Assembly (NCBI GenBank): GCA_000421325.1
Contig: ATWQ01000019.1
Coordinates: 1 to 35,489, forward strand
DNA length: 35,489 bases
Direction of reading: 5' to 3'
From: an alpha proteobacterium SCGC AAA536-K22
GTDB lineage: Bacteria; Pseudomonadota; Alphaproteobacteria; Puniceispirillales; Marisalimonadaceae
Shown: positions 5,173 through 35,439 of the stretch, in pieces
Layout: each line of letters starts with the position of its first letter
How positions within the stretch are numbered: position 1 is the first letter of the stretch
Translations under genes and position numbers: made by a program
Notes under the pieces: model-generated
What the model was told of the DNA's origin: nothing
Databases searched by the model: none
Seen by the model: only the letters and a program-made list of their open reading frames with translations

Positions 5173-6073
5173 AAACATCACCACTCCTATCATTAGGTGT
5201 CATTGAACTTTTAAGTGACGGAAAAGCTCTCTCAGCTATTTCATGCGGTGTCCAACCTGTAGCTGAATGGACGCTTTTAATAGGTCTGTGTTGATTATAT
5301 ATAAAGAGTTCATTTAATCGTGCGCTAAAAATTTGTCCAGTAACTTCTTTTGCTGCAGCTGATGATAAGAAAACAGCTAAAGGAGCATTCGTTTCAGGGG
5401 TCATTTTTTTAAGCCGTTCAACTCTCTCTTTTTCGGCCTCCGTAGTTGAAGGAATTGAGTTTGTCATTCTGCTCCAAGCAAAAGGAGCAATGCAATTTGA
5501 TCTAATATTAAATCTACTCATATCCAATGCAATAGATTTTGATAAACCGGCAATACCTAGTTTAGCAGCTGAATAATTAGCTTGTCCAAAATTACCAATC
5601 AAACCAGATGTACTAGTCATATGAACATATGAGCCTGAATTTTGTCCACGGAAATATGGAGCAGCAGCTCGGCTTACGTAAAAACCACCATTTAAATGGA
5701 CATTAATAACACTTTCCCAGTCAGATGGTTCCATTTTGTGAAAAATTGTATCTCTTAAAATACCTGCATTGTTAATAACAATATCAATCTTCCCAAATGT
5801 ATCTATTGCCTTTTTAATAATTAATTGAGCACTTTCCCAAGTAGAAACACTTTCATTGCTAATAACTGCTGTACCTCCCTTTTGTACAATTAACCCAGCA
5901 GTCTCTTCCGCTGGAGAATTTGAACCACCTTCCCCTGTCAAAGAAACTCCTATATCATTTACAACTATAGATGCTCCTTCTGCAGCAAGTGCTAATGCTA
6001 TTTCTCGACCAATACCTCCACCTGCGCCAGTTACAATAGCTACTTTATCCTTAAGTTCTAAATCAATACTCAT
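5153..6073 (-). CDS. Short-chain dehydrogenase/reductase, MFE-2-like hydroxyacyl-CoA dehydrogenase type
   Basis: This is a Rossmann-fold NAD(P)-dependent oxidoreductase. The cofactor motif GAGGGIGRE lies near residue 16 and NNAGILRD near 90. The catalytic Ser-Tyr-Lys is seen as TSTSG followed by QANYSAAK. The segment GNFGQANYSAAKLGIAGLS and the long C-terminal extension resemble the (R)-3-hydroxyacyl-CoA dehydrogenase domain of multifunctional enzyme 2, so a role in acyl-CoA metabolism is plausible but unproven. The longest frame begins at 6100; I start at 6073 because AGGA lies about 8-9 nt upstream and the protein then begins MSIDLELKDK, as in relatives. Its 3' end overlaps gph by 20 nt, tail to tail. 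Confidence 0.85.
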   Translation of the reverse strand: MSIDLELKDKVAIVTGAGGGIGREIALALAAEGASIVVNDIGVSLTGEGGSNSPAEETAGLIVQKGGTAVISNESVSTWESAQLIIKKAIDTFGKIDIVINNAGILRDTIFHKMEPSDWESVINVHLNGGFYVSRAAAPYFRGQNSGSYVHMTSTSGLIGNFGQANYSAAKLGIAGLSKSIALDMSRFNIRSNCIAPFAWSRMTNSIPSTTEAEKERVERLKKMTPETNAPLAVFLSSAAAKEVTGQIFSARLNELFIYNQHRPIKSVHSATGWTPHEIAERAFPSLKSSMTPNDRSGDVFSWDPI

Positions 6074-23686: not shown

Positions 23687-23776
23687 GGAGGGGTGGCCGA
23701 GCGGTTTAAGGCGCACGCCTGGAAAGCGTGTTGGGGTTAACGCCTCTCAAGGGTTCGAATCCCTTCCTCTCCGCCA
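23687..23776 (+). tRNA. tRNA-Ser (anticodon GGA), integration target
   Basis: This is a class II cloverleaf of 90 nt including CCA. The acceptor arm is GGAGGGG with CCTCTCC, the anticodon stem is CACGC/GCGTG with GGA at 23721-23723, a long variable arm follows (TTGGGGTTAACGCCTCTCAA), then the T arm GGGTTCGAATCCC. CCA is encoded. Its last bases, from 23760, are repeated at 25112 and 35369, showing that this tRNA is the attachment site of mobile elements that restore an intact tRNA 3' end. Confidence 0.98.
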
Positions 23777-23785
23777 ATATATAAA
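23760..23785 (+). repeat. Attachment core 1 (in tRNA-Ser 3' end)
   Basis: This 26-nt block is the tRNA 3' end (CCCTTCCTCTCCGCCA) plus one base before and AATATATAAA after. It is identical to 25112-25137. The similarity continues, with small indels, for about 65 nt more into the TACCCA motif. This is the left boundary of the accessory region. Confidence 0.9.
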
Positions 23786-23828
23786 TATACAATAAAAACA
23801 ATAACTTAAATATCAGATAATATTATTT

Positions 23829-25097: not shown

Positions 25098-25111
25098 GTG
25101 TCAATTTAGTT

Positions 25112-25137
25112 TCCCTTCCTCTCCGCCAATATATAAA
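25112..25137 (+). repeat. Attachment core 2
   Basis: A 26-nt direct copy of 23760-23785, including the tRNA 3' end with CCA. It separates the small serine-hydrolase segment from the 10-kb element. Only the tRNA 3' fragment is repeated, without the rest of the tRNA, as expected for a recombination junction rather than a duplicated tRNA gene. Confidence 0.92.
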
Positions 25138-26798: not shown

Positions 26799-26990
26799 TT
26801 AAATTAGATGAATTCCACCTAAAGCTAAATATATTAAATAACCTACTATCCACATTGGGATTGCTAAAAAAAGAGTAAATAAAACCAAATCTAAATGACC
26901 AGCACTCTCATCATCATGTTTTATATAAAATATTCCATAACTGATAATTAAGCTCAAAACTATCCCAACCAATATAATATTATCTACCAA
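26799..26990 (-). CDS. Small two-helix membrane protein
   Basis: The 63-residue protein consists of two hydrophobic helices (about residues 3-23 and 36-58) joined by a short charged turn (KHDDESAGHLD). The only available start is TTG at 26990, supported by GAGGAA 6-7 nt upstream. Small double-helix proteins in mobile elements are sometimes holins or toxins, but nothing here shows that. It converges with the exported protein upstream, 8 nt between stops. Confidence 0.45.
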   Translation of the reverse strand: MVDNIILVGIVLSLIISYGIFYIKHDDESAGHLDLVLFTLFLAIPMWIVGYLIYLALGGIHLI

Positions 26991-27062
26991 AGTAATTCCT
27001 CACCTACGTTAGTTAATAAATACTAAATAATGTAACCTAATCAACAGTTAGTCCAATTAAAA

Positions 27063-27275
27063 TTAGTTTAAATCATACTTTCTCTGATATTCAGCTTGTA
27101 TCTCAGGTGTGATAGTAATGTTTCTGCACTTAGATGCAGGTCCATAAGTGCTACCCCTTAGTCCTCTCATTTTGTTACTCTTATGACCTCCCCAACGATT
27201 GTTGGAGAAGCCACGAAGGTAATAAGGCATATCTGATAGTTTCTGATTATAGTCTCTATGCTGTTTTTTTTTCAT
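27063..27275 (-). CDS. Small basic protein coupled to the Fis-type regulator
   Basis: I do not recognise this 70-residue basic protein (many K, R, N and G; GGHKSNKMRGLRGSTYG in the middle). Its ATG overlaps the stop of the upstream Fis-type gene in an ATGA arrangement (27272-27275), so the two are cotranslated. The glycine- and arginine-rich centre suggests nucleic-acid binding, without a named domain. Its role is probably tied to the regulator. Confidence 0.5.
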   Translation of the reverse strand: MKKKQHRDYNQKLSDMPYYLRGFSNNRWGGHKSNKMRGLRGSTYGPASKCRNITITPEIQAEYQRKYDLN

Positions 27276-27469
27276 TTAGATGTCCTCCTATATGTCTTAG
27301 GCATACCTAAATTACGCATTTTCCTATGTAATCCTGAATAATGCATACCTAAAGTCTCTGCAGACTTGCGTAAGCTGTATTCATTGTTTTGAAGAACATC
27401 GTTGATAAACATTATCTCAAATTGTTCTTTAGCATCTTTAAGATTGTTATGTGTGTATAGTCTACCCAT
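27272..27469 (-). CDS. Fis-type helix-turn-helix DNA-binding protein
   Basis: In this 65-residue protein the C-terminal half, NDVLQNNEYSLRKSAETLGMHYSGLHRKMRNLGM, matches the HTH_8/Fis-type pattern (helix, SLxxAAExLGxxxxxLxRKxxxLGI). Such domains bind DNA as dimers in Fis and at the end of NtrC-type regulators. AGGAG lies 7 nt before the ATG. A perfect inverted repeat sits 19 nt upstream of the start (27488-27503), and the probable structured RNA lies beyond it on the other strand. The likely role is regulator of the element, possibly autoregulated; this is inferred. Confidence 0.75.
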   Translation of the reverse strand: MGRLYTHNNLKDAKEQFEIMFINDVLQNNEYSLRKSAETLGMHYSGLHRKMRNLGMPKTYRRTSK

Positions 27470-27487
27470 TGTTTAACTCCTGTAATG

Positions 27488-27503
27488 TATATGGGGGCAT
27501 ATA
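27488..27503. promoter_or_regulatory. Inverted repeat upstream of the Fis-type gene, candidate operator
   Basis: TATATG, four Gs, CATATA: a perfect 6-bp inverted repeat with a GGGG spacer, 19 nt upstream of the Fis-type gene start and about 50 nt before the putative RNA. GC content in the spacer is conspicuous in AT-rich DNA. It resembles a dimer binding site, but no binding is shown. Confidence 0.45.
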
Positions 27504-27544
27504 AATGTATTTAACAATTTAGATTAATACTATCTAAGTAATTC

Positions 27545-27890
27545 AAATACATGGCACTTGTAGTTCCCACTAGGTATCAACGAAGAAGGTTTTGAAAACC
27601 CAATCCGTTGATAAATTATGAGAATACTTTGGTAAGGGATTTTCGCCCAACATGACCGTTGCTTTTATCGGGTGACAATTTTAAAGTGCTGCCCAACACT
27701 CTTGGGAGATGTAGTATCTGCCTTCTTTTAACCCCTTTATCATTAGCAGTTAGTATTATTCTGCATATTTGAAGTCGTTGCTTTACAATATGAAAATATT
27801 GAAACTCAGCTCAAGTCATCATTAAAAAGTGGTCTGAACATTCATGGGTTCTCGCGAGGAAGTGGCAAGAATGTGAGAGGTTTTTTATAT
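27545..27890 (+). ncRNA. Probable structured RNA of about 350 nt, unassigned family
   Basis: The 556-nt gap between genes (27470-28025) has no long reading frame. From about 27545 to 27880 it is near 40% G+C by hand count, clearly above its surroundings, and holds several helices. These are TATCAACG/CGTTGATA (27575-27582 with 27606-27613) enclosing GGTTTTGAAAACC, GGG/CCC (27636-27648), CCCAA/TTGGG (27692-27706), CAATAT/ATATTG capped by a GAAA tetraloop (27786-27801), and ACATTC/GAATGT (27838-27874). A T6 run follows at 27881. Strand is favoured as + by the T-run and the tetraloop. It matches no family I can name; tmRNA, RNase P and 6S features were looked for and not found. Confidence 0.6.
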
Positions 27891-27917
27891 ATATATAGTT
27901 ATACCTATTTTGTATAA

Positions 27918-27955
27918 AAAGTCAAGCGTTTATGCGACTTTCCAGTGATTTTTTT
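27918..27955 (+). terminator. Weak hairpin with T-run before the nuclease gene
   Basis: AAAGTC (27918-27923) pairs with GACTTT (27936-27941), with an inner GC/GC pair after a two-base bulge. A run of seven Ts begins 7 nt later (27949-27955). The gap before the Ts makes it a poor intrinsic terminator. It could end the structured RNA or simply be AT-rich chance. Confidence 0.3.
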
Positions 27956-28025
27956 CAATTAATTGCATTATTCAACAGAGGAATATAATATTTATCCTTA
28001 AAATGACTTTGAGTTAGGTAATTTA

Positions 28026-28982
28026 ATGCAACTTTTTAATAACAAAGACAATAAACTTACACCAATTGACAAAGTTTCATTTAAACTTGAGCGAAATATT
28101 CAAGATTTAGTAGAAGCAAATATTGAAGTAATTTTTGACTATCAATTTGTATCGTCTGAACTTTCCATTGGAGAGTTTAGGTTAGACACTCTAGCATTTG
28201 ATAAACAAAACAATTCTTTTGTAATAATTGAGTATAAAAAAGGACATAGTTATTCCGTTGTTGACCAAGGTTACTCCTACTTATCAATCATGATAAATAA
28301 TAAAGCAGAGTTCATACTTGAATATAATGAAAAAAACAAAGAAGGTTTAAAACGTACAGATGTAGATTGGTCATCATCTAAAGTTATTTTTATAGCACCA
28401 TCTTTTAATGCATATCAAAAAAACAGTATTAATTTCAGGGATGTTCCCTTTGAACTTTGGGAGATTAAACAATTTGAAAAAGGTTTAATTTCATTTGAAC
28501 AGTATATTGCTTCTTCTTCTGAAAGTATTCAAAAAATATCTAAAGGAGATAAGAGTTCTGTTATTTCTAAAGTATCTTCTGAAATCAAGTCTATGAGTGA
28601 AGATGACCACATAAATAATCTTAACGATTCTATAAAACCACTTTGGAAAGGACTAAGAGAAAAACTTGAAGGTTACCCTGACACAAGTTTCTCTGTCTCA
28701 AAAAGTTATATTTCTTGGAAAAAAAACAACATAACTGTTTGCTATATACATTTTAGAAACAATGAGTTCCGTCTTGATATTCGCAGAGGAAATTTAAATG
28801 TTGATAAAATAAAATCCAAAGGTTTTTTTACATTAGATGACCCTAAAAAAATATCTGTTGAAGGAAATTGGACATGGAAAAGTGGAGAGACAGGTCATTC
28901 ATACAAAATTCCATTCAAGAAAGAAAATGACCTTGATTATCTAATGTTTCTTTTAGAGCAGAAGTATAACTCAATTGATTAA
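28026..28982 (+). CDS. PD-(D/E)XK nuclease-like protein with DUF5655-type C-terminus
   Basis: In this 318-residue protein the N-terminal domain shows the pattern of a PD-(D/E)XK nuclease core: E50 in IGEFRLDTLAF, Asp at residue 54, then the E-x-K motif in FVIIEYKKGHSY near residue 70. A short helix with Q (VVDQGYSYL) follows. This layout is like NucS/DUF91 and related DNA-end nucleases. The middle (about 165-195) is serine- and lysine-rich. The C-terminal domain (LWKGLREKLEGYPDTSFSVSKSYISWKKNN, ending in FKKENDLDYLMFLLEQKY) fits the DUF5655 type often attached to such nucleases. The next gene overlaps its stop by 8 nt. A defence or DNA-repair role is inferred. Confidence 0.7.
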   Translation: MQLFNNKDNKLTPIDKVSFKLERNIQDLVEANIEVIFDYQFVSSELSIGEFRLDTLAFDKQNNSFVIIEYKKGHSYSVVDQGYSYLSIMINNKAEFILEYNEKNKEGLKRTDVDWSSSKVIFIAPSFNAYQKNSINFRDVPFELWEIKQFEKGLISFEQYIASSSESIQKISKGDKSSVISKVSSEIKSMSEDDHINNLNDSIKPLWKGLREKLEGYPDTSFSVSKSYISWKKNNITVCYIHFRNNEFRLDIRRGNLNVDKIKSKGFFTLDDPKKISVEGNWTWKSGETGHSYKIPFKKENDLDYLMFLLEQKYNSID

Positions 28983-29370
28983 CGTATATAAGAAATTCTT
29001 TTTGATGTTGGTTATAACTATAGCAATATTTATAGTTTTTTTTAGCTACCCATCTCATGCCAGAATTGGTGATAATTACTCTTGTACTTCAAAAGATGTA
29101 CTCGCTTCCTTTGGTGAAGAAATTACAAAAAGAAAAGACAAATTAAATTTAAATTTTAAATGGGAAAAAGATTCAATCAATATTGAAGGAATTTCTAAAA
29201 AAATCCCAATAGTTAAACAAACTACAAATTCATTTGATGCATTTGATGGAATACAATTAATTACGCTAAAGTATAACGATAGATACAATAACTTTCTAAT
29301 CCAGACAGAAACTACTTTTGATAAAGTAGGATTTGTATTTATTACTTATAGATGCAAAAAAAATTCCTAA
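28975..29370 (+). CDS. Small exported protein overlapping the nuclease gene
   Basis: This 131-residue protein probably starts at TTG (28975), 8 nt inside the preceding stop. That start gives a standard signal peptide with two lysines and a long hydrophobic core (FFLMLVITIAIFIVFF, cleavage near residue 29 after SHA). An alternative ATG at 29005 would lack the positive start. The mature part has cysteines in NYSCTS and TYRCKK, one near each end, which could pair. The aspartate- and lysine-rich middle shows no catalytic motif. Function unknown; coupled to the nuclease gene. Repeat copy 1 begins within its last codons. Confidence 0.55.
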   Translation: MINVYKKFFLMLVITIAIFIVFFSYPSHARIGDNYSCTSKDVLASFGEEITKRKDKLNLNFKWEKDSINIEGISKKIPIVKQTTNSFDAFDGIQLITLKYNDRYNNFLIQTETTFDKVGFVFITYRCKKNS

Positions 29371-29436
29371 TCTGTGTAAGAGCTTGAGTATACTATAACG
29401 TATAGGGGGTGTGGGTCATGTATACCCCATTAGAAT
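29364..29436 (+). repeat. 70-nt intergenic element, copy 1
   Basis: Starts TTCCTAATCTGTGTAAG and contains GCTTGAGTATA, the palindromic CTATA-ACG-TATAG, the block GGGTGTGGGTCATG, and a closing GGGG/CCCC stem. It lies between the convergent ends of the exported protein (+) and a zinc-ribbon gene (-). It aligns with 32005-32075 along its whole length. Confidence 0.85.
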
Positions 29437-29960: not shown

Positions 29961-30713
29961 TTAAGGTAAATTACTTTTATCAAAAGGATTGCTTTCACCT
30001 CTATAAGCCGCACATAAATCAAACTGATTTGCTAATAAAATTTTATTTTCATTTGCTAATCTTATTGCTTGTTGACTAAAACCATTTGGGCAGACTACAG
30101 CAACAATTCCTCCAACTACAGTCTTAACACCAATTGCTTCTCTTATAACGGCAGGACCAATTTTAGCAGTACCTTTACATTGAATGCTAACTTCTTCAAA
30201 TTTATGAAGGGTTAGACCAGATGAATGAGGAGCTTCTCCGGTATATCTAAAACCTTTTAAGTCTATACCTTTGTCATTTCTTTTGCCTGTGTGTTCAACT
30301 TCATATCCCATTTTTTCTAACAAATCCTGAACTGCAAGTTCTAGTTTTTTTCCTTTTCTTATTCCCCAATAATTAATAGATAAAGGAACATGAAAATCCA
30401 GCCACATAAACATAGCTGTATGAAATTCCTCATTTGAATTGTAATTATCTTTCTGGGGTTTTGGTATATCTCTTACTTTGACAAATAGATTTATCCAGAC
30501 AGGATTTGTACGTCCTTCTTCTCTAAGAAATTTTTTGGGAATATCGTAATCAAAGTACTTTTTACCATCATGTGGGTCAATTCTATAGCTAGTTGGAGCG
30601 ATGAAGTTACGGTTTTCGTCATATTCTTTACTTAATACATTTTTATAATAATTAAGCATTTTGTCATATTCCCACTTATCTTCGTTCAAGGGATATTTCT
30701 CATTAATATTCAT
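29961..30713 (-). CDS. Mrr-like PD-(D/E)XK restriction endonuclease, paralogue A
   Basis: In this 250-residue protein the C-terminal half is an Mrr-like catalytic domain: LELAVQDLLEKMGYEVEHTG, the metal-binding Asp in KGIDLKG, then VSIQCKGTAKIGPAVIREAIG carrying the Q-x-K motif. The distinctive tail DLCAAYRGESNPF follows. The N-terminal 110 residues (DKWEYDKMLNYYKN, FIAPTSYRIDPHDGKKYFDYDIP, later LDFHVPLSINYWGIRKGKK) are not a domain I recognise, but the same region recurs in the paralogue at 31211. Mrr enzymes usually cut modified DNA. Its ATG overlaps the stop of the upstream exported protein gene (ATGA, 30710-30713). Confidence 0.75.
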   Translation of the reverse strand: MNINEKYPLNEDKWEYDKMLNYYKNVLSKEYDENRNFIAPTSYRIDPHDGKKYFDYDIPKKFLREEGRTNPVWINLFVKVRDIPKPQKDNYNSNEEFHTAMFMWLDFHVPLSINYWGIRKGKKLELAVQDLLEKMGYEVEHTGKRNDKGIDLKGFRYTGEAPHSSGLTLHKFEEVSIQCKGTAKIGPAVIREAIGVKTVVGGIVAVVCPNGFSQQAIRLANENKILLANQFDLCAAYRGESNPFDKSNLP

Positions 30714-31063: not shown

Positions 31064-31210
31064 AACTCCTCCTAATTAATAACCTTGAAGGAATAATTAG
31101 ACAAATTTATGGCGCATTATAAAACTTTACGCGTGATGGTAGATTTGATTAAAATCATTTTATGTATCAAATTTATAAATTAAAATTTCTTATTGTTGGA
31201 TTACTCAATC

Positions 31211-32002
31211 ATGAATACTGAAAAGTGGAAATATAATGAGACGCGTAATCAGTATGAAGATACTGAAAATCAAGAATTTGATAATGATTTAAACTTTATT
31301 AGTCCAATTTATTTTAGAATAGACCCTGATACTGGAAAGAAATTTTTTAAATATAATACCCCTCCAATGTATAATGTTAATCTTTATCAAAATGATGTTA
31401 CTCCAGAGCATAATGCATTTAGAAAAAATATTTATAACAATTCAGCCAAACCAATTGAAAATAATTTTGATAGCAATGAAGTTTATCAAACATCAATGTA
31501 TTATTGGTTAAATGTCAATGTTCCATTGTCACGTTATTATTGGGTGATTAAAAAAGATTATTATTTAGAGGATGCAGTTTTTTATTTGCTCAAAAAGATG
31601 GGTTACTCAGCCCAACTTACAGAAACCAGCTATGATAATGGTATAGATTTGTGGGTGCAAGACGATGACAATAATCCATTATGTATTCAGTGCAAAGGAA
31701 CTGCAAGGATTGGCCCAGCTATAATTAGAGAAGCTATTGGTGTTAGAACCATGCAAAGTAAACCTTATAGACCAAAATTAGACGTAGTTGTGGTTTGTCC
31801 TAATGGATTTAGTACTCAAGCTGAGCATACAGCCAAAAAAAATAAAGTTTTGCTAGTTGACGCCACTGATTTGTGCGCGGCTTATAGAGGTGAAAGCAAT
31901 CCTTTTTGTTTTAATAATAAAAGAAGAATTGTTCCAAAACCATTTGAATTGTTTATAGACGAGTTTGGAAATTTAAAAAAAAGAACTAATGTATACATTT
32001 AA
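31211..32002 (+). CDS. Mrr-like PD-(D/E)XK restriction endonuclease, paralogue B
   Basis: This 263-residue divergent paralogue of the protein at 29961-30713 has the same order of blocks. The N-terminus (EKWKYNETRNQYED, FISPIYFRIDPDTGKKFFKYNTPP), the bridging VNVPLSRYYWVIKKD, the catalytic Asp in NGIDLWV, and LCIQCKGTARIGPAIIREAIGVRTM are followed by VVVCPNGFSTQAEHTAKKNKVLLVDATDLCAAYRGESNPF. An insertion (about residues 55-80) and a longer C-terminal tail distinguish it. The longest frame begins with TTG at 31193; the ATG at 31211 aligns with the paralogue's start. The pair is arranged divergently. Repeat copy 2 begins 3 nt after the stop. Confidence 0.75.
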   Translation: MNTEKWKYNETRNQYEDTENQEFDNDLNFISPIYFRIDPDTGKKFFKYNTPPMYNVNLYQNDVTPEHNAFRKNIYNNSAKPIENNFDSNEVYQTSMYYWLNVNVPLSRYYWVIKKDYYLEDAVFYLLKKMGYSAQLTETSYDNGIDLWVQDDDNNPLCIQCKGTARIGPAIIREAIGVRTMQSKPYRPKLDVVVVCPNGFSTQAEHTAKKNKVLLVDATDLCAAYRGESNPFCFNNKRRIVPKPFELFIDEFGNLKKRTNVYI

Positions 32003-32004
32003 TT

Positions 32005-32075
32005 TTCCTAATCTGTGTAAGGGCTTGAGTATATTATAACGTATAGGGGGTGTGGGTCATGCATACCCTAAGAAT
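32005..32075 (+). repeat. 70-nt intergenic element, copy 2
   Basis: Nearly identical to copy 1 over the first 60 nt (TTCCTAATCTGTGTAAG, GCTTGAGTATA, TAACGTATAGG, GGGTGTGGGTCATG). The closing stem differs: TAGGG pairs with CCCTA here, where copy 1 has GGGG with CCCC. It lies between Mrr-like gene B and the zinc-ribbon gene, both on the + strand. Confidence 0.85.
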
Positions 32076-33353: not shown

Positions 33354-33857
33354 ATGAATGTTTTAATTGCAGACCATAACAAAAGCACAATAGCTTCAAT
33401 TAATGAATGTAATCCATCTTTTGATGTTGAGTTAGGTAATCCATTAGCATTTGATATAGACGCAGTAGTTAGTCCTGCAAATACAATGGGTATTATGAAT
33501 GGTGGATATGATGCTGTTCTAAGACGTTATTTTGGGGTGGGTATTGAGTACACAGTAAGGCAATACTTTGATAAGTTTAAGCTAGATGTTGGAGATGCAA
33601 TAGCTGTTAAAACAGGACATTCAAAAGTTGAATGGTTAATTGTTACACCTACAGTAAGCGTAACTGGAGAAGGTTTATCTGGTCATGCATCTGTGTCTTA
33701 CTCATGTGCATATAACGCTGTTAAAGCAGCATATGCAAAAGACATTCAGTATTTAGGTATGACTGGATTAGGTAGTGGTGTAGGTGGGTTAGATAGAAGA
33801 GTATCTGCTAAACAACAAGTCCAAGGTATTGAAGATGCTTTGAGTGAAATCACCTAA
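33354..33857 (+). CDS. Macro-domain protein (ADP-ribose binding)
   Basis: The 167-residue protein is one macro domain. DAVVSPANTMGIMNGGYDAVLRRYFG carries the Asn-containing catalytic/binding loop and the glycine-rich NGG. MTGLGSGVGGLD is the second ADP-ribose loop. VTPTVSVTGEGLSGHASVSYSCAYNAVKAA fits the core strands and helix. Macro domains bind ADP-ribose, and some remove it from protein or DNA. AGGAG lies about 8 nt before the ATG. In the element it is the last + strand gene before the integrase, and repeat copy 3 starts directly after its stop. No ADP-ribosyltransferase partner is seen in the window, so its target is unknown. Confidence 0.85.
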   Translation: MNVLIADHNKSTIASINECNPSFDVELGNPLAFDIDAVVSPANTMGIMNGGYDAVLRRYFGVGIEYTVRQYFDKFKLDVGDAIAVKTGHSKVEWLIVTPTVSVTGEGLSGHASVSYSCAYNAVKAAYAKDIQYLGMTGLGSGVGGLDRRVSAKQQVQGIEDALSEIT

Positions 33858-33930
33858 TTTTCTCATCTATGTAAGAGCTTGAGTATATAATAACGTATGG
33901 CATGGGTGTGGGTCATGCCTATCTATTAAA
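33858..33930 (+). repeat. 70-nt intergenic element, copy 3
   Basis: More diverged copy: TCATCTATGTAAG, then GAGCTTGAGTATA, TAACGTATGG and GGGTGTGGGTCATG. Here GGCATG pairs perfectly with CATGCC around the conserved GGTGTGGGT loop. It lies between the macro-domain gene (+) and the integrase (-), tail to tail, filling the whole gap. Confidence 0.82.
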
Positions 33931-35277
33931 TTATACATTTAGTTTTGGGATGCTTTCAATCATTTCAAAGAGTTTAGACATTGACTGTCTTGCAAAGTAA
34001 GTCTTCCCAGCTTGTGTTCTTCCTATATTAGATTTCTTGTGACCTGTTAAATCAGAAATCTCTAACTCTGAATATTTAGCATTTAGTAAGATGGTAGAAA
34101 ATCCATGTCTAAAAGAATGATGTACAAATTTATTTTTATCTTCTTCTATTTCAAGTTCCTCTAACATCTTATCCTTTAATCTTCCAAACCTTTTACCAAG
34201 TGCAGTTGATGAAGGTGACATCCAATTTGATAATGTTATCTTTTTAAGTTCAGAATGAAGGGGTATTATTCTTGTAGCTGATTCTGTTTTTCCTCCATTT
34301 TCTGCAACATTAAATATTCTTACGTTCTCTTCTTTATCTAGTTTGGCAGTAAAGATTTCATCTAATCTCATTCCAGTATAATAACTTACATAAATAAGCT
34401 GTGTTAATTCTTTATCTTCAGAGGCTAGTTCAATTAATTTTACTATCATCTCACTTGTAAATGGTTTTCTTACACTTGGTTCCTTGAAGTTAGTCATTTT
34501 CTGACCTCTAAAAGGATTTTCAATATTGTTTAAATAACCTTCTCTTTTGGCAAACTCAAAGACAGCCCCTAGATAGTTAATGTCATTTCTAAAAGTTCTG
34601 ACAGCTCTATCTTTTGTTCGTGCAAACTTGACGTAATCACTTACCATCTTAGGGGTAATTAATCTTAATTCTATATCAGCAATTTCTCTATACTCTAGAA
34701 AACGTTTACTAGCGTTCTTAACTTTATTTTGCGTTTTTGATGACTTGCCTTCAGCTTTAAGTTCTTCCATATATTTATTAGACATTACTGCTAAACCAAC
34801 AGGATAGGGATGAGGTTTGTCATAAAATTTTGATTTTCTTTTTTCTCTTTCTCTCTCAATCGCCAACAGATTATTTTCTGCATTGCTAAAACTTTGCTCA
34901 TCTGTAATTTTGAGTTCATGAATATGGTCAGAAATTGAGCTGCTTGAAATCATTTCGGTGAGGTAATCATACATTGTATCTAAATCAGTATCGGTCATAA
35001 TTTCAAAATCTTGAGTGCCTTTCCAATAAGCATCTGCCCCTACTAGAACTGCTTCAGGCTTTGGTCTATCAATAATCTGCAGTTCTTTTAATCTTTTATT
35101 AGCCCTTTCATAGGCTAGATTATAGTCAGATGTTCTAAGCGTTTCTTTAAAGTTTTTCTTATTTGCAGGAAGATTAATAAAATCTGGTAATCGTCTCATC
35201 CAGTCTTTAATATGGAATTGAAGGTAAAAGTTATTACCATTATTAGAAATAGAAGTTTTGTGGTATTTTCTGCTCAT
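33931..35277 (-). CDS. int: Tyrosine-type integrase of the tRNA-Ser element
   Basis: This is a 448-residue site-specific recombinase. The N-terminal 100 residues (HKTSISNNGNNFYLQFHIKDWMRRLPDF) are a DUF6538-like arm-binding region, and the middle (about 165-260) is the core-binding domain. The C-terminal catalytic domain has Arg in YTGMRLDEIF, the lysine-bearing turn NGGKTESATRIIP, HSFRHGFS with the His-x-x-Arg, GH in LTGHKKSN, and the nucleophile tyrosine in AGKTYFARQ. All expected catalytic residues are present, so it looks active. It reads inwards from the right end; its start is about 11 nt from arm motif C and about 92 nt from att core 3. Confidence 0.93.
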   Translation of the reverse strand: MSRKYHKTSISNNGNNFYLQFHIKDWMRRLPDFINLPANKKNFKETLRTSDYNLAYERANKRLKELQIIDRPKPEAVLVGADAYWKGTQDFEIMTDTDLDTMYDYLTEMISSSSISDHIHELKITDEQSFSNAENNLLAIEREREKRKSKFYDKPHPYPVGLAVMSNKYMEELKAEGKSSKTQNKVKNASKRFLEYREIADIELRLITPKMVSDYVKFARTKDRAVRTFRNDINYLGAVFEFAKREGYLNNIENPFRGQKMTNFKEPSVRKPFTSEMIVKLIELASEDKELTQLIYVSYYTGMRLDEIFTAKLDKEENVRIFNVAENGGKTESATRIIPLHSELKKITLSNWMSPSSTALGKRFGRLKDKMLEELEIEEDKNKFVHHSFRHGFSTILLNAKYSELEISDLTGHKKSNIGRTQAGKTYFARQSMSKLFEMIESIPKLNV

Positions 35278-35309: not shown

Positions 35310-35368
35310 ACAAGTGTATATTTGTTATCTACAGTGTATATAAGTAATTTTTGGAGTTAAGAAGGGAT

Positions 35369-35385
35369 TCCCTTCCTCTCCGCCA
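35369..35385 (+). repeat. Attachment core 3 (right end)
   Basis: The 17 bases from 35369, including CCCTTCCTCTCCGCCA, repeat the tRNA-Ser 3' end, and GGGATT just before it echoes the T-arm. Identity stops right after CCA, whereas cores 1 and 2 share ten further bases. This marks the right junction of the 10-kb element. Confidence 0.9.
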
Positions 35386-35439
35386 TTAAATACTATTAAG
35401 TTGTTGATTTAATTGATATTATTAATTAGATAAAATCTA

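Follow-up and report, generated by a model that had tools for sequence, protein, structure and literature searches.

The locus at 27545-27890 raises the question of what a stretch without genes encodes inside an integrative element of a SAR116-order bacterium, and on which strand. Here we consider it within its window (the whole stretch of DNA analysed, 35,489 nt) and together with its relatives in other genomes. The stretch contains a conserved RNA structure backed by covariation among homologues, and we propose, with a probability of roughly one half (about 0.52), that its minus strand encodes the structured 5' leader of the element's HTH_8 operon, controlling that regulator in cis. A sequence-only reading of the same DNA had described the stretch as gene-free and near 40% G+C in AT-rich surroundings. 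Indeed, it has no reading frame of at least 60 aa, and its G+C content of 37.6%, compared with 30.1% for the island, is reached by 1.5% of the island's 346-nt windows (step 10 nt, the stretch's own overlapping windows counted). It is flanked by a pair of small minus-strand genes (27272-27469 and 27063-27275) and by a plus-strand gene encoding a DUF5655 protein (28026-28982, Pfam DUF5655), the product of which also matches the PADLOC candidate defence family PDC-S18 (E 1.7e-98).

The site of the host element is a tRNA-Ser(GGA) gene (23687-23776), upstream of which lies a 600-aa frame that we take to be lepA; its extent is marked by copies of a 27-bp repeat of the tRNA-Ser 3' end (23757-23783, 25109-25135 and 35366-35392) and by a minus-strand tyrosine integrase gene (33931-35277, Pfam PF00589/PF13102). 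The three copies divide the island into a 1.35-kb unit without an integrase, whose single gene resembles a serine hydrolase by eye, and a 10.3-kb unit with one. Each copy additionally has a nearby repeat (at 23819, 25171 and 35278) with TGTACC(C/T)AG-type motifs, which are possible integrase arm sites.

Homologues of the RNA are found in seven of 136 SAR116-order genomes, and were reached by several routes. A blastn search with the region gave matches in 24 of these genomes, its own included; the clear relatives are L003 and L004 (72-73% over about 310 nt), themselves a near-identical pair (94%), while the match in L007 is short (35 nt) and the remainder are pieces of 21-61 nt. L003, L004 and L007 each adjoin the same HTH_8 gene. 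Searching with the 70-aa protein encoded next to HTH_8 gave three further operons and one decayed remnant, and two of these loci, L056 and L057, have the same landmarks upstream of HTH_8. The seventh homologue, L083, was found by a covariance model, on a contig that shares 24 bases with the contig holding the rest of its HTH_8 gene. Protein coding across the leader was considered and rejected, the longest ATG frames being 27-64 aa on either strand of the seven members, with a frame in common in the near-identical L003 and L004 only.

The sequence-only reading had taken helices visible in the single plus strand of the window as evidence for a structured RNA, an argument that did not survive comparison with shuffled sequences: the plus strand folds no better than its shuffles (z of -0.02, 54 of 100 as good or better; z of +0.46 with slightly different ends), and the minus strand gives z of -1.58 and -1.65. 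Across the homologues the single-sequence scores are mixed, the plus strand being lower in L056, L007 and L004 and the minus strand in the window, L003 and L057, so that we regard single-sequence folding as uninformative here. Because the single plus strand folds like its shuffles, the evidence for structure comes from the homologues. Specifically, RNAalifold applied to an unedited MAFFT alignment of six minus strands predicts 31 pairs at -17.7 kcal/mol, compared with a mean of -1.8 kcal/mol (sd 1.6) for 200 column shuffles (z of -9.8, none of 200 as low), and 18 two-sided compensatory pairs against a shuffle maximum of 11. With seven sequences the minus-strand z is -13.9, and -18.5 when the near-duplicate L004 is left out.

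Pair counting agrees with the alignment folds. In the six-sequence structure 90.8% of 184 cells are paired, a count that scores the alignment's own predicted structure, compared with 75.8% after redealing the 3' letters and 35-48% when the arms are slid by one to three columns; all five pair-count measures are reached by none of 500 shuffles, although the shuffle and redeal controls leave shared ancestry in. Furthermore, a covariance model (R1) built from the window, L003, L004 and L007 only was able to recover the remaining members unseen: its matches to L056 (E 4e-9) and L057 (E 3e-4) are the only further ones below 0.5 in 110 kb, L083 was matched at E 5e-4 in 47 kb, and all three lie at the expected place and on the expected strand. 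Run over the whole order with stricter filters, R1 recovered five of 136 genomes and missed G076 and G064; of its three unseen members it found L056 there, but neither L057 nor L083. Helices aligned by hand are paired in 414 of 435 cells (400 Watson-Crick and 14 G-U, with 8 A-C and 13 other), a figure that is no test, the helices having been picked by eye for pairing; the count omits L083 for H1i, H3a, H3b, H4, H5, H7b, H7out and H8, the window for H7out, and L007 and L056 for H7b, and uses H1f3 in place of H1o and H1i in L056 and L057. An arm-swap test, in which the true order comes out on top whichever strand is taken and which thus does not separate the strands, carries the same by-eye bias, of which the alignment folds against shuffles, the R1 finds and the 184-cell count are free. 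Thus the homologues that the sequence-only reading had asked for were collected and do covary beyond shuffles.

These folds also bear on the strand. A functional plus-strand RNA ending at the T6 near 27,886 would account for plus-strand structure that likewise exceeds shuffles (z of -6.3 with 15 compensatory pairs for six sequences, -5.5 for seven, and -4.8 without L004), and with seven sequences the plus strand has more compensatory pairs than the minus strand (17 against 14; 18 against 12 without L004), its counts exceeding the maxima of its own shuffles (13 and 8). Taken singly, L056 and L007 also fold well on the plus strand (z of -3.8 and -2.5). Against this, the energy z favours the minus strand in three of three comparisons, while the compensatory count with seven sequences does not; the hand-aligned helices, with 14 G-U against 8 A-C pairs, lean weakly to the minus strand without significance (P 0.14). 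No invariant promoter motif was recognised by eye at the plus-strand 5' side, and the closing hairpin and T6 that the sequence-only reading had taken as a 3' end fared poorly, as the T6 is not conserved and a scan of the window from 26900 to 28100 lists no intrinsic terminator on either strand. We consider a plus-strand RNA to be quite improbable.

The minus strand, by comparison, has a promoter-like motif at the right edge of the stretch in all seven homologues, TTGAC-N17/18-TATAACTATA, in an alignment whose columns average 60% identity. In the window a -35-like hexamer, TTGACT (27920-27925), of which TTGAC is invariant in the seven, precedes a -10-like hexamer, TATAAC (27898-27903), within an equally invariant TATAACTATA; the spacer between TTGAC(T/A) and the -10 is 16 nt in six homologues and 17 nt in L056. 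The motif at 27898-27925 looks like a sigma-70 promoter. Its TATAAC is without the final T and a promoter scan did not list it, and with a single instance of TTGAC-N17-TATAAC in the genome, this is not a widespread promoter form there. Overall, we consider the minus strand quite likely to be the functional one. The transcript would probably run leftward from near 27,890 towards HTH_8, placing the T6 at its 5' end, and the predicted leader then spans 27470-27891 (minus strand, with a start placed about 7 nt after the -10). It is about 420 nt long in the window and 340-430 nt in relatives, with 338-428 nt between the -10 and the HTH_8 start across the seven homologues.

Read 5' to 3' along this predicted transcript, the structure opens with H0 (27882-27885 with 27825-27828) around hairpin H1 (27866-27873 with 27839-27846, inner pairs 27859-27861 with 27849-27851), both hand-aligned only. 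A long-range helix, P2 (27813-27819 with 27652-27658), supported by alignment and fold, closes a multi-branched domain; it is invariant at four pairs in six sequences, and its ATGAC/GTCAT becomes ACTGG/CCAGT in L083 and ATGAA/TTCAT in L057. Within the domain lie hairpins H3 (27769-27771 with 27741-27743 and 27761-27764 with 27746-27749), H4 (27695-27700 with 27685-27690, with a GGGC loop) and the hand-aligned H5 (27674-27678 with 27659-27663), all three unassigned in L083. Beyond it are H6 (27646-27648 with 27636-27638), found by alignment and fold, and the hand-aligned H7a (27606-27613 with 27575-27582) around H7b (27597-27601 with 27588-27592). The last of these is the 8-bp stem enclosing a second stem that had been picked out by the sequence-only reading, and it is present as described. 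A GAAA-capped CAATAT/ATATTG hairpin (27786-27801) from the same reading also exists in the window, although most of its 3' arm belongs to a 15-nt insertion (27798-27812) that is absent from the other six homologues. That insertion makes up 15 of the 58 nt over which 27792-27849 resembles, in the same sense, a frame of congeners read as rpoC (78%, E 5.6e-6). As the genome has no second copy of its own at E 0.001, we judge this similarity to be probably chance; it is not shared by the other RNA homologues.

A further long-range pairing is P3 (27776-27782 with 27576-27582), whose 5' arm lies in a hairpin loop and which is supported by RNAalifold, by the pair counts and by L083. P3 crosses P2, making the fold a pseudoknot. 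It comprises seven pairs as defined on the six-sequence fold, with one mismatch in the window, and its arms change together, from GGGAACG/CGTTCCC in L056 and L057 to AAGAACG/CGTTCTT in L007 and GGCAACG/CGTTGCC in L004. In the later-found L083 the arms are GCAGACG/CGTCTGC, with seven of seven paired and three pair types new relative to the other six; a fully complementary 7-mer would arise by chance no more than 20 nt from a given position with a probability of about 0.0025. The 3' arm of P3 overlaps that of H7a by 7, 5, 5, 1, 1, 3 and 5 nt in the window, L003, L004, L007, L056, L057 and L083, respectively, and thus by at least 3 nt in five of the seven and by 1 nt in two (L007 and L056).

Such covarying inverted repeats could also act as DNA, as an origin, a transfer or recombination site, a cruciform or a single-stranded fold, and the location of the stretch in a mobile element, beside the gene of a DNA-binding protein, would suit that role. 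This is very improbable given that G-U occurs among the pairs of covarying columns (e.g., P2, P3, H5), that P3 is long-range and pseudoknotted, and that the promoter-like motif keeps a constant position with respect to the structure.

What lies downstream points to the operon that an RNA leader would control. The HTH_8 (Fis-type) protein gene (27272-27469, minus strand, 65 aa, Pfam PF02954, E 3.6e-6), preceded by a ribosome-binding site, AGGAG (27477-27481), follows the RNA on the same strand in seven of seven homologues. The sequence-only reading had rightly placed a Fis-type regulator next to the stretch, but as "opposite" to it; the gene is better read as downstream on the same strand. Overlapping the HTH_8 stop is the gene of a 70-aa orphan protein (27063-27275, minus strand), present in six of the seven modules and not found by search in that of G002. 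At the thresholds used, searches of Pfam, PHROG and NCBIfam with the 70-aa protein gave nothing below E 0.1 (the best match being HoxA13_N, E 0.11), and an AlphaFold2 model of it (pLDDT 56) was not used. It has a conserved core, YLRG(F/L)SNNRWGGHKSN..RG, and occurs in seven of 136 order genomes counting a remnant in G015. The genes that flank the RNA on the side away from HTH_8 are not the same across the six modules examined (the window, L003, L004, L007, L056 and L057), which indicates that the conserved unit is the RNA with HTH_8, joined by the 70-aa gene in all but one of the seven. A nuclease gene following the RNA, proposed as part of its context from the sequence, is not found beside it in the five modules of this set other than the window. 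The sequence-only call of an undescribed structured RNA is sound as to structure, while its plus strand, its ends and its context are probably wrong.

Does this RNA belong to the HTH_8 message or is it a separate molecule? We favour a leader on the grounds that there is one promoter-like motif, that no terminator was found before the gene and that HTH_8 is always there. The main alternative, which we consider somewhat unlikely, is a non-coding RNA from the same minus-strand promoter that ends or is cut before HTH_8 and acts in trans, on element or phage messages or bound to protein, while HTH_8 would be its partner or its regulator. For a leader, the conserved structure is large, and it contains a pseudoknot. 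Conservation drops over the 106 nt that separate the 3' arm of P3 from the HTH_8 start, the helix there (H8) being weak and unassigned in L083, so that the RNA could end before the gene. Abundant non-coding RNAs are, moreover, reported in phage ICP1 and its PLE satellites (PMC7567579). A separate RNA sits less easily with the scan of the window, which gave no terminator, with the position of HTH_8 as the very next gene, in the same orientation, in all seven homologues, and with the fact that no promoter of HTH_8's own was recognised by eye.

Taking the cis-acting leader as the preferred reading, the pairings suggest how it may work. Transcription would start at the sigma-70-like promoter near 27,890, and the leader would precede a small operon of HTH_8 and, usually, the 70-aa orphan protein. 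The nascent RNA would fold into the multi-branched domain closed by P2, and a loop in that domain would pair, as P3, with a segment that immediately precedes the 3' end of the structure. The same segment is predicted to form the 3' arm of H7a, so that P3 and H7a would overlap (by at least 3 nt in five of seven). Leaders with overlapping pairings usually set the expression of what follows them, and on that basis we propose a switch, in which the choice between P3 and H7a might depend on a bound molecule, on a protein that the operon itself encodes or on the timing of transcription. This choice would in turn set the amount of the regulator, and hence the timing of element gene expression. The leader showed neither an anti-Shine-Dalgarno helix nor a terminator. 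Structure, covariation, the promoter-like motif and gene order form the sequence-derived basis of this scheme; transcription, action in cis, switching and any effect on the element are what we infer from it. It is tempting to go further and to imagine a new pseudoknotted switch-RNA class of SAR116 integrative elements, in which P3 and H7a compete to gate a Fis-type regulator on a cellular or phage signal and the RNA acts as the element's decision point, an extension that we regard as speculative and, taken whole, unlikely. The defined pairings make direct tests possible.

Comparison with known families gave no match for the RNA. As the sequence-only reading had anticipated, the RNA has no match to tmRNA, RNase P or 6S; none of the 4227 families of Rfam 15, which include GOLLD, ROOL, HEARO and group I/II introns, is reached at gathering score, and scans at that score of the whole window and of L053-L055 gave tRNAs only. 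A permissive scan (E up to 10) of the region in the window, L056, L057 and L083 gave nothing near gathering score; the best match, with 24 against 66 bits (E 0.016), is to a plastid UTR family and falls on the opposite strand. Distant members can escape Rfam models, so that a very diverged member of a known family might have been missed; the gathering-score and permissive scans leave this with very slight probability, and we give it the least credence of the readings considered.

Among the closest known systems are structured cis-regulatory leaders (orphan riboswitch candidates and autogenous leaders), with which the predicted leader would share the order of promoter-like motif, conserved structured 5' region and same-strand gene as well as overlapping alternative pairings. 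The RNA described here is longer than most of these, has no Rfam match, occurs in one order only within the collections searched, and is tied to the HTH_8 gene of a mobile element. Type III toxin-antitoxin RNAs are made of tandem repeats that precede the gene of an endoribonuclease toxin; here Tandem Repeats Finder lists no array in 27400-27960 at score 30, and the gene downstream is HTH_8. The P4-type immunity RNA is short and processed, and terminates transcription of its own leader. P4 and phiR73 are likewise integrative elements, and regulation in these satellites involves RNA complementarity to gene leaders (PMC7567579); no small processed RNA or terminators were identified here. GOLLD and ROOL are, like this RNA, large structured RNAs of mobile elements near tRNA genes, but ours is about half their length, has no Rfam match and is linked to HTH_8; the same source describes them as often near tRNAs and about 800 nt as comparable to them in size (PMC7567579). 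Vibrio PICMI satellites resemble the present element in being small, integrative and found in marine bacteria, and they too have a fis gene as a neighbour. In their case, however, fis belongs to the host and is where the satellite integrates, and the core genes include alpA and a primase (PMC10803314), whereas here HTH_8 is carried by the element itself, which sits at tRNA-Ser. Nothing naming this RNA appears among the literature matches listed for SAR116 mobile elements and non-coding RNA, and little is written on SAR116 mobile elements among those matches. What the present analysis adds is a strongly covarying RNA family that Rfam 15 lacks, together with its promoter-like motif and partner gene.

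The distribution of the RNA follows that of its integrase. With E required to be below 1e-60, six of 136 order genomes, the window's own among them, have a relative of the integrase, and five of the six carry the RNA. The sixth, G015 (81% complete), has a decayed 70-aa fragment 1.2 kb from tRNA-Ser(GGA); covariance-model searches did not find the RNA in this genome, and its element seems to have lost the RNA module. The remnant of the 70-aa gene, at 5410-5535 of locus L081, lies next to tRNA-Ser(GGA), and the integrase of that genome is 84% identical to the window's. Two further genomes, G002 and G080, have the RNA without such an integrase match, and in both the RNA lies less than 3 kb from a contig end. 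Within the order, the RNA thus tracks one integrase subfamily, which offers a handle on the regulation of integrative elements in streamlined marine bacteria.

Outside the order, the class genomes sampled gave no accepted relative of the RNA, HTH_8 or the 70-aa protein. HTH_8 at E 1e-10 and the 70-aa protein at E 1e-5 each matched one of 385 genomes, the window's own, and a second RNA model (R2) at E 0.01 matched two of 372, the window's own and G322 (E 0.008), the latter judged chance by eye. Within the order, R2 at E 0.1 gave matches in 12 of 136 genomes. Seven are strong, and all of these belong to the alignment from which the model was built; the other five are weak (20-24 bits), among them one inside a 674-aa helicase-like frame and another that aligns at its ends only. 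Viral contigs gave no relatives by DNA pattern or by protein, phages no match for HTH_8 or the 70-aa protein, and plasmids no match for the 70-aa protein, while the region itself has short weak matches only in phage and plasmid DNA. Scanning genome contigs with the HTH_8 alignment gave four loci, three on known SAR116 contigs and one an HTH of a Nitrospirae bin (35% identical). Order-wide, HTH_8 at E 1e-5 matches 23 of 136 genomes, four of them below 1e-20; by our own reading, most of the others are C-terminal domains of longer regulators.

Elsewhere in the island, a repeat of 43-84 nt lies directly 3' of three plus-strand genes (29344-29427, 31985-32068 and 33856-33921), with GGGGGTGTGGGTCATG exact in two copies and carrying two mismatches in the third. 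A similar G-rich hairpin is found 3' of the 70-aa gene in L056, L057 and L082, and repeat and hairpin are perhaps a shared terminator or cassette boundary. The island also carries two Mrr-type nuclease genes in opposite orientation (29961-30713 and 31193-32002), both of which have inverted repeats in common, of 61 nt (79%) and 40 nt (95%).
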